DNA of 64,000 bases from contig NZ_CP107575.1 of assembly GCF_025854375.1 (NCBI RefSeq), forward strand, positions 1,674,001 through 1,738,000, in the 5' to 3' direction. Positions 14,389 through 24,194 of this stretch are shown here, piece by piece; the stretch's first letter is position 1; each line of letters starts with the position of its first letter. Source of the stretch: Glutamicibacter sp. JL.03c (lineage in GTDB: Bacteria > Actinomycetota > Actinomycetes > Actinomycetales > Micrococcaceae). The notes below the pieces were generated by a model, which saw nothing but the letters and a program-made list of their open reading frames with translations, was not told where the DNA came from and did not search any database. The translations under genes and the position numbers were made by a program.

Positions 14389-15444
14389 GTGAGCGAAGCC
14401 AACAGCCAGGCACCCCACGGTGCGGCAGCCCGTCGTGGACCATTCCGCGTGGGCGACCGCGTGCAGCTGACCGACGAAAAGCGCCGGATCAACACCATCA
14501 CCTTGCAAAACGGTGGTGAGTTCCATACCCACAAGGGTGTCCTGCCGCATGAGGCCATTATTGGCCTGCCTGAGGGCTCTGTCATCGAGAATATCGATGG
14601 CTTCCGATACCAGGCACTTCGACCGCTGGCCAAGGACTTCGTTCTCTCGATGCCTCGTGGCGCAACCGTGGTGTATCCAAAGGATGCGGCTCAGATCGTC
14701 CAGTTCGGCGACATTTTCCCAGGCGCACGCGTGGTCGAAGCCGGTGTCGGTTCTGGCGCGCTGTCGATTTCCCTGCTTCGCGCCGTTGGCGATGAAGGAT
14801 TCCTGCACTCCTTCGAACGCCGCGAAGAGTTCGCCGACATTGCCCGAGGCAATGTGTCCACCGTTTTCGGTGGCGATCATCCTTCATGGAAGATCTCCAT
14901 CGGCGATTTCCAGGACAAGGTCGTCGAGCTTGAAGAGCCAGGCAGCGTGGATCGAGTAGTACTCGATATGCTCAGCCCGTGGGAATGCCTGGACGCTGTA
15001 GCCACCGTTCTTGCGCCAGGCGGCGTATGGACTAACTATGTCTCCTCAGTGACGCAGATGTCGCGTGTAGTTGAAGCCATTCGTGCTTCCGGGCAGTTCA
15101 CCGAGCCAGAGTGCTTCGAGACCTTGGTACGTGGCTGGCACGTCGACGGATTGGCTGTGCGTCCGGACCACCGAATGGTGGCTCATACTGCCTTCCTGAT
15201 TACCTGCCGTCGTTTGGCCGATTCAGTAGATGGAATTCCCAAGGCCAAGCGGATCAAGGAGCACTCTTACTCAGCGGAAGACTTGAGCGCGTGGACTCGC
15301 GACCATGATGAGCAGGAGTGGAGCGCCGAAGCACTGGGCGAACGAGGAATTTCGGATAAGAAGCTCCGTCGTGCTGCTCGGGACGCGCATCAGGCTGTCC
15401 GAGTGCGTGATGCCCTGGGGGCCGAGGCGGACTCCAACGAGTAG
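14389..15444 (+). CDS. trmI: tRNA (adenine-N1)-methyltransferase (TrmI family)
   Basis: A 351-residue SAM-dependent methyltransferase that makes 1-methyladenosine at position 58 of tRNAs. The N-terminal beta domain is followed by the Rossmann fold with motif I VVEAGVGSGALSISLLRAVG and the acidic motif LHSFERREEF. DRVVLDMLSPWE holds the catalytic-site aspartate region and is characteristic of TrmI. In mycobacteria and relatives this gene lies just before the ARC ATPase gene, exactly as here. The GTG start follows AAGGA. A hairpin lies between it and the ARC gene. Confidence 0.92.
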   Translation: MSEANSQAPHGAAARRGPFRVGDRVQLTDEKRRINTITLQNGGEFHTHKGVLPHEAIIGLPEGSVIENIDGFRYQALRPLAKDFVLSMPRGATVVYPKDAAQIVQFGDIFPGARVVEAGVGSGALSISLLRAVGDEGFLHSFERREEFADIARGNVSTVFGGDHPSWKISIGDFQDKVVELEEPGSVDRVVLDMLSPWECLDAVATVLAPGGVWTNYVSSVTQMSRVVEAIRASGQFTEPECFETLVRGWHVDGLAVRPDHRMVAHTAFLITCRRLADSVDGIPKAKRIKEHSYSAEDLSAWTRDHDEQEWSAEALGERGISDKKLRRAARDAHQAVRVRDALGAEADSNE

Positions 15445-15528: not shown

Positions 15529-15620
15529 TCCTAGGATGGGACTAAGACGGTGCGCTGAGCATCGCAAAACCTCGCTGGAATCAATAAAGACCAGCGACGT
15601 TGAATGTGGGGAGTTGGAAC

Positions 15621-17303
15621 GTGAACGAAAATCACGAGGCAGAGCAATTGGCCGAACGGCTTCAGATGACCGAACGCCAGGTCAATGTGCTGCGCGACAA
15701 AAACCGCAACCTCGACAAGCAACTTGCCGGGCTCAGCGGAAACAACCAGCGGTTGGTCGCATTGCTGGAAACGACGCGCGAACAAATCATCACGTTGAAA
15801 GCCGCCCTGGAAAAGGACGGCGAGACCCCATTCAGCTACGGCACTGTCGTCTCCAAGCACCCGCGCCAGCACCCGGAACCTGGAACAGGCATCGAGTCCA
15901 CTGGGGTGCAGGCAGTCGACGTGATTTATTCCGGCCGCAAAATGCGCGTCGCCGTCAGCCCGCTGATGGATTTCGACTCCGTGCTGGTCGGTCAGCAGGT
16001 TTTGCTGAACGAAGCATTGGTCGTCGTTGCCGCCTTGGGATTTGAGGAAACCGGAGAATTAGTCACGGTCAAGGAGCTGCTGGAGAACAACCTGGCAGTG
16101 GTGATGGCCCGTGCAGACGATCAGCGGGTCATCGAACTAGCGGATCCGTTGCGCAGGACGCACTTGCGAGTGGGCGACCAGCTGACCGTTGATTCCCGCA
16201 GCGGCATGGCGGTCAGCCGCGTGCAGCTGACCGATATGCAGTCCCTGGTTCTGGAAGAAGTCCCCGAAATCTCCTACTCGGACATCGGAGGACTGAACTC
16301 GCAGATCGAGGCCATCAAGGACTCGGTAGAACTGCCATTCACTCATCCGGAGCTCTACCGCGAACATGGGCTGAGCGCACCCAAGGGCATCTTGCTCTAT
16401 GGCCCTCCGGGCTGCGGCAAGACACTGATCGCCAAGGCTGTCGCCCATTCATTGGCCCAACGTGTTGTTGAACGCAAAGAAGGCACCAGCACCCGAAGCT
16501 ACTTCCTGAACATCAAAGGGCCGGAGCTGCTGGACAAATACGTCGGTGAGACCGAACGCCATATTCGCCTGATCTTCGCCCGCGCTCGGGAAAAGGCGCT
16601 GCACGGCGATCCAGTCGTGGTGTTCTTCGACGAAATGGAAGCTCTGTTCCGCACCCGCGGGACCGGCGTATCCTCCGACGTGGAGACCACGATCGTTCCA
16701 CAGCTGCTGGCAGAAATCGATGGCGTGGAACGGCTGGACAACGTCATTGTCATCGGCGCATCAAACCGCGAAGACATGATTGATCCTGCCATCCTGCGAC
16801 CAGGTCGCCTTGACGTGAAGATCAAGATCCGCCGGCCAGACGCCCAGGGCGCCAGCGAGATCTTCAGCAAGTATCTGACCACAGACCTGCCATTGCACGA
16901 CACCGAGCTGGCAGCCGATCATAACAACGGTGATGCCACGATCCGCCGAATGATCGATTCCACTGTTGCTGAAATGTACTCCACCGAGCGGATCAACGAA
17001 TTCCTTGAAGTCACCTACGTCACCGGGCAGACCGAGATTCTGTATTTCAAGGATTTCGCCTCGGGAGCGGTGATTCACAACATCGTCGACCGCGCGAAGA
17101 AGCACGCGATCAAAGCTCTGATCACCTCGGGCGAGCGTGGCTTGAAGCAGGAATACCTGCTGCGCGCCGTTCGGGAAGAATTCGCTGAGCACGAAGATAT
17201 GCCAAACACCACCAACCCGGATGACTGGGCGCGAATCTCCGGACGAAAGGGCGAGCGGATCAGCAATATCCGCTCCCTGGTCAACCGCCAGGCCGCTTCA
17301 TGA
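15621..17303 (+). CDS. arc: Proteasome-type AAA ATPase ARC (Mpa homologue), no proteasome-docking tail
   Basis: A 560-residue hexameric AAA ATPase that binds Pup and unfolds pupylated proteins. An N-terminal coiled coil (about residues 5-60, [19 protein letters not shown]) is followed by tandem OB domains and the AAA domain, with Walker [14 protein letters not shown] and Walker [12 protein letters not shown]. The GTG at 15621 is preferred to the upstream TTG because GGGGAG lies seven bases before it. The protein ends VNRQAAS. The GQYL-type C-terminal motif with which mycobacterial Mpa opens the 20S gate is absent, matching the lack of prcBA in the locus. It overlaps dop by four bases. Confidence 0.95.
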
Positions 17304-18916
17304 GCGCGCGCCGCCTCGTCGGGCTGGAAACCGAATACGGCATCATCCGACCGCAAATGCCCAAGGCCAATGCAACCGTGCTTTCAGCGCAAATTGTTGA
17401 TGCCTACGCGCAACTGGTCGCCGAGCAGAGTTCCTCTGCGGCCGCGGCGCGCTGGGACTATGCCGATGAATCTCCCTTGCAGGATGCCCGCGGATTCTCG
17501 ATGGACCGCGGCCAAGCGCATCCGAGCCAGCTGACGGATGCGGAGCCGGAGCTCGAAGAGCAAGGTATCTGGACCGCGGAATCCATTGCCCTGGACGGCA
17601 ATGACGCGCGCGTGGGTTCAACCCTTTACCAGGAGAAGGACTCCAATGATGTCGTGATGAACATGGTGCTGGGCAACGGGGCACGCCTCTATGTCGACCA
17701 TGCGCATCCGGAATATTCAAGTCCCGAATCATTGACTCCCCGCGCTGCCGTCCTGTGGGATCAAGCCGGCGATGAGGTCATGCGCCGTGCTGCTCGCACG
17801 GCCGCGCGGTTGGGCAGCGGCGAGTTGTTGCTCTATAAGAACAACACCGACAACAAGTCGGTATCCTACGGGGCGCACGAGAATTATTTGATTCCCCGGG
17901 CCGTTGAATTCCCGTCCATCGTCCAGGGGCTGACACCATTTTTCGTCAGCCGCCAGATCTACTGTGGCGCCGGACGGGTGGGGCAAGGCATGCTCAACGA
18001 GGAGCCTGCATTCCAGATTTCGCAGCGTGCGGATTTTTTTGAAGCTGAAGTTGGACTGGAAACCACGATTAATCGTCCAATCATCAACACCCGCGATGAG
18101 CCGCATGCCAACTGGGATAAGTACCGTCGCCTCCATGTGATCATTGGTGACGCCAACCTAGGCCAGATCTCAACACTGCTCAGGGTGGGGACCACCAATT
18201 TGGTGCTCTCTTTGATCGAAGCAAATATGGCACCAAACCTGGAACTAGTCGACCCGGTTCAGGCGCTGCAGCAAATCAGCCACGACCCGAGCCTCAAAAC
18301 CAGGGTCAAATTCCGCGGGGGACTGGAGCTTTCGGCCGTCGAAATCCAGAGGCTCTACCTTGAAGCCAGCGAGAAGTACTGTGCCCAAAGGGGCCTGGAG
18401 GATTCGGATACCACGGAGATCCTGACTCGGTGGGCCCGGATCCTGGACGTCCTTGAGCATGATCCGATGCAGGCGGCCGACCAGATTGACTGGATTGCCA
18501 AGTACAAGCTCATCAGCGGATTCACCCATCGGCACCAGCTCTCGCTCGCTGATCCGCGTGTCGCGATGATGGATTTGCAATGGGCCGATCTGCGCACCGA
18601 CAAGGGCCTCTACTACCGCCTGGCTGCGCGAGGCGCGATCCAGACGTTGTTCAGCCAGGACGAAATCAACCAGGCAGTTGAAACGCCGCCCCAGGACACC
18701 CGCGCCTACCTTCGCGGCATGGCACTCCAGCGCTATGCGCCATATGTGGTTGCCGCCAACTGGGACGCATTGTCCTTCGCGGTCCCGGGCGCCCGGAAGA
18801 TCAGCCGATTCCACATGCCCGAACCCTTGCAGGGGACCCGTCAGAGCGTTGGCGAATTGTTCGACGCTGAATTGGAAATTTCGGAATTTATCGACGAATT
18901 GGCTCGACGCAGGTAA
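17300..18916 (+). CDS. dop: Deamidase/depupylase of Pup
   Basis: A 538-residue enzyme of the glutamine-synthetase-like Dop/PafA family. It deamidates the C-terminal Gln of Pup to Glu and also removes Pup from substrates. The N terminus VGLETEYGI carries the ATP/metal-binding glutamates. [28 protein letters not shown] and [12 protein letters not shown] are the family signatures. The insert at about residues 45-85 corresponds to the Dop loop that separates it from PafA, and the larger size also fits Dop. A homologous ligase, PafA, lies downstream. The start overlaps the ARC gene (ATGA), so the two are coupled. Confidence 0.95.
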
Positions 18917-18981
18917 ACGGCGCAGAATAGGTTTGAGTCTTGGGGCCTAATTCCGGGATTCAACAATTTTAGGAGATTAAG

Positions 18982-19167
18982 ATGACTCAGGAAAGCTTCT
19001 CAGCTCGCCGCAACACACAAAGCCAGTCAGCGGAAACCGAACAGGTGCAGGTTAACACCACCGGCCAATCAGCAGGCGTTGATGACTTGCTCGACGAGAT
19101 CGATTCTGTCCTTGAATCCAATGCCGAGGAATTCGTCCGCGGTTTCGTTCAAAAGGGCGGCCAGTAA
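18982..19167 (+). CDS. pup: Prokaryotic ubiquitin-like protein Pup
   Basis: A 61-residue disordered modifier protein with the typical polar N-terminal half and the helical DDLLDEIDSVLESNAEEFV segment that binds the ARC coiled coil. It ends FVQKGGQ, so it is made with a C-terminal Gln and needs Dop to become ligation-competent. Upstream AGGAG gives a strong ribosome site. It has its own spacer of 65 bases after dop, and 76 bases separate it from pafA. In mycobacteria and Streptomyces the proteasome subunits prcB and prcA occupy this second spacer; here there is no room for them. Confidence 0.97.
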   Translation: MTQESFSARRNTQSQSAETEQVQVNTTGQSAGVDDLLDEIDSVLESNAEEFVRGFVQKGGQ

Positions 19168-19243
19168 AACACCTGCGTGCATAACGCAGCCGAGATCTGG
19201 CATCACATTAGGCAACGCCGCAGGCGAGGGGAAGTAACTACGC

Positions 19244-20617
19244 GTGGATCGCAGAATTTTCGGGCTGGAAACAGAATTCGGACTAACCTACGTCCCTTCT
19301 GACGGACGCCGGCTGACTCCGGAAGATGCCGCACGGCATCTGTTCAAACCAGTGGTCAACTGGGGGCGAAGCTCCAACGTCTTCCTGGAGAACGGATCAC
19401 GGCTCTATCTGGATGTTGGGTCTCATCCGGAATACGCCACCGCCGAATGCGATCAGGTGCAACAACTCATCGCACATGACCGCGCCGGTGAAGCCTTCAT
19501 GCTTGATCTTGTGGACCAGGCCGAAGACCAGTTGCTGGAAGAAGGCCATGAAGGCCGAATCTACATGTTCAAAAACAATGTGGACTCGGCAGGCAACTCC
19601 TATGGCTGCCATGAAAACTATTTGATTCCCCGCAAGATCGAGTTCAAACGGCTTGCCGACATGCTCATCCCGTTCTTGGTCACCCGGCAACTTCTCTGCG
19701 GTGCCGGGCATCTGATCACAGAGGACGATCAAACCAAGTTCGTCTTTTCCCAGCGCGCCGATCACATGTGGGAAGGCGTGTCGTCTGCCACGACCCGTTC
19801 GCGTCCGATCATCAATACCCGCGATGAACCGCACGCTGACGCGGAATACCATCGCCGTCTGCATGTTATCGTGGGCGATTCCACCATGAGCGAGACCACT
19901 CAGCTGCTCAAGATCGGTGCCACCGACCTCGTTCTGCGCTTGATCGAATCCGGTGAGATCTACCATGATCTGCGTCTGGAAAACCCGATTCGTTCCATCC
20001 GCCAGATCTCGCATGACTTTAATGGCCAAACCATGGTCCGCCTGATGGGCGGGGACGAGCCTACTGCGTTGCAGATCCAATGGATCCTTTTCGAATCCGT
20101 GACCGAGTTCGTTAAGCGCCACGGCGCCCACCATGATCAAGTCGATCGAGTGCTTGAGCTGTGGGAGCGGACCTTGGTCGCGATCGAAAGCGAAAATTAT
20201 TCGCTCATCGACCAGGACATCGACTGGGCCATCAAACATAAGCTGCTGCACGGCTACGCGCAGAAGAACTCGCTGGAGTTGTCTTCGCCGCGCCTGGCGC
20301 AGCTGAACTTGACCTATCACGATATCGACCCGGCTCGTGGCCTTTTCCATCTGCTGAAACGGCGTGGACTGGTTTCGAGCGTTGTCAGCGATGCGGACAT
20401 CCGCGATGCCGTGAACAATCCACCGGCTACGACGCGCGCAGCGATCCGAAGCAAGTTTATCCGTGCCGCTCGAGCCAATGGCCGGCGCTACAGTGCAGAC
20501 TGGGTTCATATGAAATATGAGGACGAGCCGGGTGGAATCGTGCTCTGCAAGGACCCGTTTGCAATCAACGACCCCGAAGTGGATAAGCTCATTGACCTCA
20601 TGGGTCAGCGTCCCTAA
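19244..20617 (+). CDS. pafA: Pup--protein ligase
   Basis: A 457-residue ATP-dependent ligase joining the C-terminal glutamate of Pup to lysines of target proteins. The N terminus RRIFGLETEFGLTY carries the metal-binding glutamates. [32 protein letters not shown] and [13 protein letters not shown] are the signature blocks shared with Dop. The shorter length and the absence of the Dop loop identify it as PafA. The GTG start follows GAGGGGAAG. All catalytic blocks seem intact, so pupylation should be functional even though the proteasome core is not encoded next to it. Confidence 0.95.
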   Translation: MDRRIFGLETEFGLTYVPSDGRRLTPEDAARHLFKPVVNWGRSSNVFLENGSRLYLDVGSHPEYATAECDQVQQLIAHDRAGEAFMLDLVDQAEDQLLEEGHEGRIYMFKNNVDSAGNSYGCHENYLIPRKIEFKRLADMLIPFLVTRQLLCGAGHLITEDDQTKFVFSQRADHMWEGVSSATTRSRPIINTRDEPHADAEYHRRLHVIVGDSTMSETTQLLKIGATDLVLRLIESGEIYHDLRLENPIRSIRQISHDFNGQTMVRLMGGDEPTALQIQWILFESVTEFVKRHGAHHDQVDRVLELWERTLVAIESENYSLIDQDIDWAIKHKLLHGYAQKNSLELSSPRLAQLNLTYHDIDPARGLFHLLKRRGLVSSVVSDADIRDAVNNPPATTRAAIRSKFIRAARANGRRYSADWVHMKYEDEPGGIVLCKDPFAINDPEVDKLIDLMGQRP

Positions 20618-20735
20618 CCAGCGGGCGGAAAGACTTTTCACAGCTACTAACCCTAGGGTGGTAGCAGTGAGTTTCATACCCGCTTGTTGGGTAGCTGTGT
20701 AAATTTTCAATTTTGACTTCAACGAAAGTAGATTC

Positions 20736-22196: not shown

Positions 22197-24194
22197 GTGA
22201 GCATAAAGCAATCCAGTGGCCCTAGCAAAGCAGAACGCCTAACCAGTCTGATCTATGCCTTGGCAACCAAATCACGGAAGTTCAACGCCGAGCTGATCGG
22301 CGAGTATCTTGTTCCAGACGGTTCTGCTGATACCCGTGAAAAAGCGCTTGATCGTCTCAAAGATGACATTCGAAATGACTTCGGACTGCAGCTGGACAAG
22401 GAAACCATCGACGGTGTTCCTTACTACAGCATCGACACGACCGACTGGTTCCTGCCGCCGGTGACGTTCAGCCCAGCCGAGGCCGGCGTGGTCGCCTTGG
22501 CTGCAAGTTTATGGAAAGACACGAAGCTTCAATCCCTGGGCCTGAACGCCGCAGCGCGGGTCACGGGACACGCCGATTCAGTGTCACCGGTTTCGCCGTT
22601 GGCCGGTTCCCTGGTTCCACGGCTGTCCATGGATGAACCGAACTTCCGCGACTGCGCGCTGGCAGTTTTCAACCGCAAAGCCTTGAAGTTCGCATATGTT
22701 TCGTCCCAGGGTTCAAAAACCGACCGCATCGTTGATGTGTGGGGAATTGGACAGCGTTACGGCAATTGGTACTTCACCGGATTCGACCACACCCGCAATG
22801 ACTCCCGGGTCTTCCGGCTTTCGCGCGTGCAAGGCAAGTTCAGCAACCATCGCCACAACGGCACGGACAGCGTTTACCACCCGCGCCCGGACAACTTCGA
22901 GATGAACCAGGTGCTCCTGGACTTTGATCTCAAGCACCCTGGATACTTCGCCACCATCAAGCTGCACAGCGACGAAGCCATTCCTTTGCGAGCCCAATCG
23001 CTGAACGGAAGTCGTTCGAACTCCGAACTTCAGATCGGTTTTTCGGACCCGCACTCCTTCGCAGCGGAACTCGCTGCCTACGGGCCAGCTGTGCAGGTTC
23101 TGGAGCCGGCTGACTTGGCGGAGCAGGTGCGCAGCCTGCTGCTTGACGCCAGGACCGCGCAACTTGCCCAGCGCGATTTAGAGCACTATGCGCAGGTCAA
23201 GTTCCGCCCGAGCAGGGCTACAGGCCGTGGCACCACCACCACGCAGGTGATGCGCAACATCGACATGATCCAATATGTCGTGGCGCAAGGCGCGGTGGAG
23301 ATTCAGGAGCTAGCAGATCGCTATTCCATGAGCGTGGCCAAGGTCCGTGAGGAGCTGGCAATGATCATGATGTGCGGTGTGCCGAACGGGCAGCATGATG
23401 AGCTGATCAACGTCAATGACGGCGATCTCGAATCCGATACCGTCACCATCTCCAACGCGGCCGTCTTGGCTGAACCCCAGAAGCTCGCCCCGCTGGAGGC
23501 CGTCGCTGTTCTGGGAGGTCTGAACGCGTTGTCGAGCATTCCCGAGTTCGAGCACCAAGACGTCCTCAACTCAGCACTGGCCAAGGTGAACTCTGCCGTC
23601 GCTCGCTTTGAAGGGTGGAACGGAGCCCTGGGATTTGCGCTGTCTAAGGCACGCGAGAACGACATCCCGCGCCAGCTGGTCCAGGCGGTCCGACAGCATG
23701 AAGTTGTACGCATCGATTACTACTCCGCAAGTTCCCGAACCCATCAGCTGCGCGACATTGAACCTGTCCGGATGATCGAAGACGGTTCGGTTCAGTACCT
23801 TCGCGCCTGGTGCCGAAAACGGGAAAATATGCTGACTTTCCGCGTCGATAGAATTTTAACTGCGGAAACTCTAGATGAACATTTTGTTCCCGCAGCCAAG
23901 CATGATGACGAGCAAGATGTCCAGATTCGATACGAGTCCAGTTCGGATGATCTTGAGGTTGTCCTGTACGTGGATGCCGAGATCTTGCCTGTAGTCGAGG
24001 CGTTCCATCCGACATCGTGGTCAACAGGAAAAGTGGAAAGCGGCTATCTAGCCACGGTACGTTTCTCAGACCATCAAGTGGCAGCGCCATTGGTAGCTCG
24101 GCATAGCGGTAAACTGGCTGTGGTCAGTCCTGACGCTACGCGCGAACAAGTAGCGCTGTGGTTGGACGAGGCTATCCGAATGTATGAGGATTAG
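22197..24194 (+). CDS. pafBC: Fused PafB-PafC WYL-domain transcription activator
   Basis: A 665-residue protein carrying two consecutive copies of the HTH-WYL-WCX architecture. The first (about residues 1-320) has the N-terminal winged helix SKAERLTSLIYALATKSR and a WYL core with DRIVDVWGIGQRYGNWYFTG. The second (about 340-665) has MIQYVVAQGAVEIQELADRY and a WYL core with RIDYYSASSRTHQLRDIEP. In mycobacteria these are two genes, pafB and pafC, whose heterodimer activates the RecA-independent DNA-damage response. Native fusion is known for Arthrobacter. The GTG start has no strong ribosome site. The location next to the pup genes is conserved even though the function is transcriptional. Confidence 0.92.
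   Translation: MSIKQSSGPSKAERLTSLIYALATKSRKFNAELIGEYLVPDGSADTREKALDRLKDDIRNDFGLQLDKETIDGVPYYSIDTTDWFLPPVTFSPAEAGVVALAASLWKDTKLQSLGLNAAARVTGHADSVSPVSPLAGSLVPRLSMDEPNFRDCALAVFNRKALKFAYVSSQGSKTDRIVDVWGIGQRYGNWYFTGFDHTRNDSRVFRLSRVQGKFSNHRHNGTDSVYHPRPDNFEMNQVLLDFDLKHPGYFATIKLHSDEAIPLRAQSLNGSRSNSELQIGFSDPHSFAAELAAYGPAVQVLEPADLAEQVRSLLLDARTAQLAQRDLEHYAQVKFRPSRATGRGTTTTQVMRNIDMIQYVVAQGAVEIQELADRYSMSVAKVREELAMIMMCGVPNGQHDELINVNDGDLESDTVTISNAAVLAEPQKLAPLEAVAVLGGLNALSSIPEFEHQDVLNSALAKVNSAVARFEGWNGALGFALSKARENDIPRQLVQAVRQHEVVRIDYYSASSRTHQLRDIEPVRMIEDGSVQYLRAWCRKRENMLTFRVDRILTAETLDEHFVPAAKHDDEQDVQIRYESSSDDLEVVLYVDAEILPVVEAFHPTSWSTGKVESGYLATVRFSDHQVAAPLVARHSGKLAVVSPDATREQVALWLDEAIRMYED

Follow-up and report, generated by a model that had tools for sequence, protein, structure and literature searches.

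What does a pupylation locus do in a bacterium that possesses no proteasome? The question is raised by a locus of Glutamicibacter sp. JL.03c, located in a stretch of 64,000 nucleotides (nt) of contig NZ_CP107575.1 (positions 1,674,001 to 1,738,000), here called the window. The locus consists of the four genes arc, dop, pup, and pafA, which are all uninterrupted, lie on the same strand, and span positions 15600-20617. Taking the analyses below together, we consider it probable that a Pup-proteasome locus that has been deprived of both the 20S core and the docking tail of its ATPase operates here as a reversible tagging and unfolding system, in the mode of Corynebacterium glutamicum.

The locus and its missing parts

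The locus comprises the following features, in window coordinates:

15600-17303, plus strand: arc, TTG start, 567 amino acids; TIGR03689 at 764 bits (cut-off 505), and also PF00004, PF17758, and PF16450
17283-17303, plus strand: the final six ARC residues, NRQAAS, and the stop codon; neither the GQYL docking tail nor its linker is present
17300-18916, plus strand: dop, Pup deamidase/depupylase; TIGR03688 at 615.5 bits
18982-19167, plus strand: pup, 61 amino acids, C-terminal GGQ; TIGR03687 at 76.6 bits
19168-19243: spacer of 76 nt between pup and pafA, the site of prcB and prcA in proteasome-bearing relatives
19244-20617, plus strand: pafA, Pup-protein ligase, GTG start; TIGR03686 at 686.8 bits

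The initial annotation had reported four intact genes, only 76 bases between pup and pafA, an ARC ending in QAAS in place of GQYL, and loss of the protease. The first three points agree with the features listed, and the last was confirmed by searching the whole genome. The host genome is a single contig of 3,586,856 bp, 100% complete, and a profile search for PrcA/PrcB (PF00227) returned no match in it. The same profile matched in 10/14 control genomes, Escherichia coli among them. PF00227 also covers HslV, for which the E. coli control is positive; the absence of any PF00227 protein therefore leaves the host with neither 20S subunits nor HslV, and HslV is ruled out as a substitute protease. 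None of the 12 genomes sampled from the genus (host included) gave a match, and PrcB of the sister genus, used as a query against the host genome, gave a best E value of 0.13, which together rule out a concealed or relocated proteasome. The 76-nt spacer itself contains no prcA or prcB remnant, the best tblastn matches listed (E values of 0.006 to 0.044, 7 to 22 residues, against a tiny target) being noise.

Bpa (PF10759) likewise has no match in the host genome. When the genome was scanned for GQYL codons followed by a stop, the single match continued into TGG without a stop, and the credible matches of the same search in two controls, G126 and G144, were ARC and Bpa; 30 of the 31 matches of this search were inspected, the exception being one in G144. 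The Cdc48-like protein Cpa, reported only where prcBA occurs (PMC6017811), was considered as an alternative opener and set aside, as TIGR01243 exceeded its cut-off in 0/17 genomes, thirteen of which carry PF00227, a weak result in that the sensitivity of the model for actinobacterial Cpa is unproven.

ARC is composed of proteasomal-ATPase OB domains, an AAA domain, and a conserved C-terminal strand region, which is taken to be the putative end of the beta-grasp domain described in PMC8142254. The ATPase motifs (Walker A GPPGCGKT, Walker B, the pore loop KYVGE, the arginine finger, and RPGRLD) are retained. The protein stops six residues past the last conserved strand, whereas the ARCs of the sister genus are longer, with 22 residues after IRT[IV]V that end in GQYL. 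Within the genus the residues after the conserved strand differ (NRQAAS, NQQAGK, KAKDAL, GKGHRS, and DARGAQ), and a conserved new docking motif was rejected on this ground. Such variability is unlike a docking motif, and no replacement motif is apparent.

Selection on the remaining genes

Ratios of nonsynonymous to synonymous polymorphism (pN/pS) were calculated for the 12 genomes of the genus (66 pairs) and amounted to 0.167 for arc, 0.223 for dop, 0.217 for pup, and 0.152 for pafA. The corresponding values in the proteasome-bearing sister genus are 0.127, 0.204, 0.222, and 0.117. All four genes of the locus are under purifying selection, which argues that the pathway is still working. The 4-nt overlap of arc and dop is also found in both genera (gap of -4).

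Distribution of protease and tail in the family

The survey covered 197 Micrococcaceae genomes, designated below by G numbers and their genera by g numbers (Glutamicibacter is g1 and its sister genus g23). PF00227 is present in 106 of them and absent from 91, and despite these absences an ARC above the family cut-off was found in 196/197. ARC ends were tabulated for 195 genomes; G189, in which no ARC exceeded the cut-off (completeness 91%, contamination 6%), and G067, whose ARC is truncated by a contig end, were left out. In total, tail and protease agree in 189/195 genomes, 101 with both PF00227 and GQYL and 88 with neither, including 12/12 sampled genomes of g1. The six discordant genomes comprise five with PF00227 and no GQYL and one with GQYL and no PF00227. 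The initial annotation had proposed that the two losses go together, and it had named as a counterargument that the usual proteasome-bearing ARC of the family might also end without GQYL; the comparison of ARC C termini upholds the former and removes the latter, as 101/106 such ARCs end in GQYL. The interval between pup and pafA follows the same division, at 1,483 to 1,701 nt in the 84 measurable loci with prcBA and -4 to 272 nt (median, 5.5) in 88 loci without it.

Each of the 196 ARCs read contains the Walker A pattern GxxGxGKT as well as the Walker B and pore-loop patterns. An apparent loss of an ATPase motif in the prcBA-less genera g3 and g6 (in the whole survey, 24/90 prcBA-less ARCs fell outside a narrower Walker A pattern) was rejected, since these proteins carry GPPGNGKT or, in one case, GLPGNGKT. 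The ARC of G166 (g15) does not match the arginine-finger pattern used. Among the loci in which pup was read, the Pup C terminus is GGE rather than GGQ in 2/86 with prcBA and 7/88 without it. In G076 (g24), the Bpa match is weak and covers 41 residues only. One genome of g26, G077, lacks both prcBA and GQYL, and the six other sampled members of that genus have both; the loss in G077 is apparently recent, and the genus offers a good close pair for experiments.

Number and order of losses

A species tree was built from rpoB and rpoC of 28 of the 197 family genomes and 2 outgroups, with frames picked by mutual similarity; support is below 80 on 6 of its 27 inner branches. Glutamicibacter and g23, a genus with prcBA and GQYL, are sisters (support, 99), and g18, also proteasome bearing, joins them in a group apart from genus g4. 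Its loss is therefore an event of its own, or nearly so, and this one tree supports its separation from the loss in most other genera. Since prcBA occupies the same operon position wherever it was read, regain is unlikely, and losses only were counted: read off the best tree, prcBA would have been lost 12 times and the tail 8 times. A fewest-changes count that allows regain gives 7 and 5. In a sign test on independent pairs, none of 7 pairs ran counter to the association (median p, 0.0625), which alone is not significant.

Genomes in which tail and protease disagree

The genome with a tail and no protease is G008 (g9). The genome has no PF00227 match, and its locus, on the minus strand, contains a pup-pafA spacer of 272 nt. 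An open frame in this spacer joins the first ~45 residues of the PrcB frame directly to the last ~43 residues of PrcA (tblastn against that stretch alone, E values of 1e-7 and 2e-11). We read this frame as a likely fossil of an in-frame deletion that fused prcB to prcA and removed both catalytic cores. The ARC of G008 ends in GQYL, and a shortened Bpa is encoded elsewhere (a 139-amino-acid frame covering profile positions 51-161, with C-terminal GQYL). On this reading the protease was the first to be lost, and G008 represents proteasome loss caught part way.

The five other exceptions, G001 (g2) and G093, G110, G155, and G167 (g22), have prcB and prcA beside an ARC without GQYL. A PF10759 search found no Bpa in any of them, and the search for GQYL followed by a stop found no credible GQYL-ending protein in G001, G093, G110, or G167 (the last 71% complete). 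In G155, it found one 128-amino-acid frame ending in GQYL, to which none of the matches in the other four corresponds. PrcB of these exceptions retains the TTI start, GDRRAT, and MEKVF, which we take to be the catalytic residues, and PrcA retains the lysine of L(F/R)KLSEIYD, presumably the pocket lysine. Purifying selection acts on prcBA of the four g22 genomes: pN/pS is 0.192 for prcB and 0.167 for prcA, and two genera that have GQYL give 0.171-0.228 and 0.145-0.173, respectively. At positions at least 97% conserved elsewhere, at least one of four exception proteins deviates at 28/95 in PrcB and 28/104 in PrcA (a raw count, with no null expectation); these altered positions would weigh against an unchanged 20S. 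In a PrcBA tree of 35 family rows and 13 outgroup rows, the PrcBA of these exceptions form one group nested within the family, at the end of a long branch. This grouping fits descent with a changed constraint, the long branch making the placement less sure.

On the rpoB-rpoC tree, the sampled members of g13, g4, g15, and g17 share a clade with these exceptions and have neither tail nor 20S, which under a loss-only reading implies that the tail was lost first and prcBA later, several times; five further members of g22 (G021, G049, G073, G125, and G140) have no PF00227. These five may possess a proteasome with an opener not yet known. A literature search, which was not exhaustive, yielded no description of 20S genes accompanied by an ARC that lacks GQYL.

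Weighing the explanations

In the scheme that we favor, such a locus would have lost its 20S core together with the docking tail of the ATPase. Dop would deamidate Pup, a step required before ligation because Pup ends in GGQ, and PafA would couple it to lysines. ARC would grip the Pup tag and release the tagged protein or complex after unfolding it or pulling it apart. Dop would finally strip off Pup, allowing both Pup and the protein to be reused. We infer that pupylation takes place in this organism and that ARC unfolds without a protease partner. The initial annotation had named unfolding, storage, iron release, or signaling as probable roles in place of degradation, with another protease as an alternative, a sensible interpretation that is supported in part. 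A ferritin would be a candidate substrate, as the studied case of the C. glutamicum mode is the disassembly of bacterioferritin (PMC12288473; the C. glutamicum precedent is also treated in PMC8223512), and two proteins of the ferritin family are encoded in the host genome, of which one looks Dps-like from its sequence. Several observations weigh against this scheme. The ferritin-family profile matches all 14 control genomes, so the presence of such genes says little. The prcBA-less genera g6, g15, and g21 have clearly higher pN/pS values (0.29-0.56), indicating a weaker constraint on the locus in these genera. Finally, the persistence of GQYL in G008 in the absence of a 20S means that loss of the tail is not immediate.

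Instead, a new tail might allow ARC to deliver pupylated substrates to a different protease, whether ClpP, Lon, FtsH, or one not yet known. Selection does retain ARC, and the five relatives with 20S genes and a GQYL-less ARC make a different docking mode conceivable in the family; the variation of the last ARC residues even inside the genus is unlike a docking motif, however, and with HslV absent too we regard this alternative as unlikely. To a similar degree we doubt that ARC merely assists depupylation, with Pup a regulatory mark and unfolding incidental. Mpa enhances depupylation in vitro, which PMC3511204 offers as one reason for keeping the ATPase without a 20S, but the pore-loop and Walker patterns in every ARC of the survey fit a translocating unfoldase; this explanation and the tagging-and-unfolding scheme overlap.

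The loss of protease, Bpa, and tail alike could also mark the locus as a decaying, functionless remnant. This is very improbable in view of the four uninterrupted genes and of pN/pS values (0.15-0.22 over 66 pairs) close to those of the proteasome-bearing sister genus. Most improbable of all, with nothing in its favor, is that a 20S exists and was missed, being divergent or outside the assembly. The genome is complete in one contig, the sister PrcB found nothing, all 12 genomes sampled from the genus are negative, and the profile has matches in 106/197 family genomes and 10/14 controls; as far as sequence permits, this explanation is already refuted.

Relation to known systems

The arrangement has precedents. 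In PMC3511204 (2012), actinobacteria without prcBA are described as having pup directly before pafA and an ATPase that is retained without its C-terminal interaction motif, the same motif that is missing from the ARC described here, and a nondegradative role is suggested for them. PMC8223512 (2021) describes a prcBA-less subgroup that likely arose by secondary loss, and Micrococcus luteus, of the same family as Glutamicibacter, and C. glutamicum are among the genomes of a figure whose legend refers to that subgroup. C. glutamicum retains arc, dop, pup, and pafA, has no prcBA, and disassembles bacterioferritin (PMC12288473, 2025). The present locus differs from that of C. glutamicum in that Pup ends in GGQ and needs Dop, whereas the C. 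glutamicum protein has Glu as its last residue (PMC3511204), and in that its loss occurred within the Micrococcaceae, in a lineage already separated from a sister genus that has the proteasome. Compared to the mycobacterial and Streptomyces Pup-proteasome systems, the four genes are homologous and in identical order, but 20S subunits, GQYL tail, and Bpa are missing from this genome. The Glutamicibacter locus is thus a further genus showing a published pattern, and the phenomenon is established, not new. We found no paper on pupylation and the proteasome in Micrococcaceae or Glutamicibacter in a search that left most subscription journals outside its reach.

Neighboring genes

The closest named relative at the locus is Arthrobacter sp. 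MYb229, with 83% identity in ARC. The locus is flanked by the following genes:

14389-15444, plus strand: trmI, uninterrupted, preceding arc
22197-24194, plus strand: a WYL protein of 665 amino acids, matching PF13280 (two stretches), PF19187, and PF25583 (two stretches), with WYL, WCX, and PafC-HTH domains

The 665-amino-acid protein, downstream of pafA, is apparently a fusion of PafB and PafC. Two FKBP-type isomerases are also encoded beyond pafA in the window.

Implications for the family

For Glutamicibacter, a published pattern is settled by three lines of evidence: the complete genome, the control provided by the sister genus, and the test for selection. More value lies in the family survey than in the window, and the strongest new leads are the six exceptions. 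The repeated losses, the fossil, and the tail-less ARC beside a conserved 20S turn the question of pupylation without a proteasome into comparisons of close relatives. It is conceivable, though we hold it only tentatively, that Pup, ARC, Dop, and PafA form a self-standing unfolding module in the Micrococcaceae for which the 20S is dispensable, docking having been lost about 8 times and the 20S about 12 times, with g2 and g22 having kept the 20S after tail and Bpa were gone. If so, the proteasome of the g2 and g22 bacteria would be opened by a factor, not yet known, that does not rely on GQYL, and these cases point to a possible GQYL-independent opener of the bacterial proteasome.

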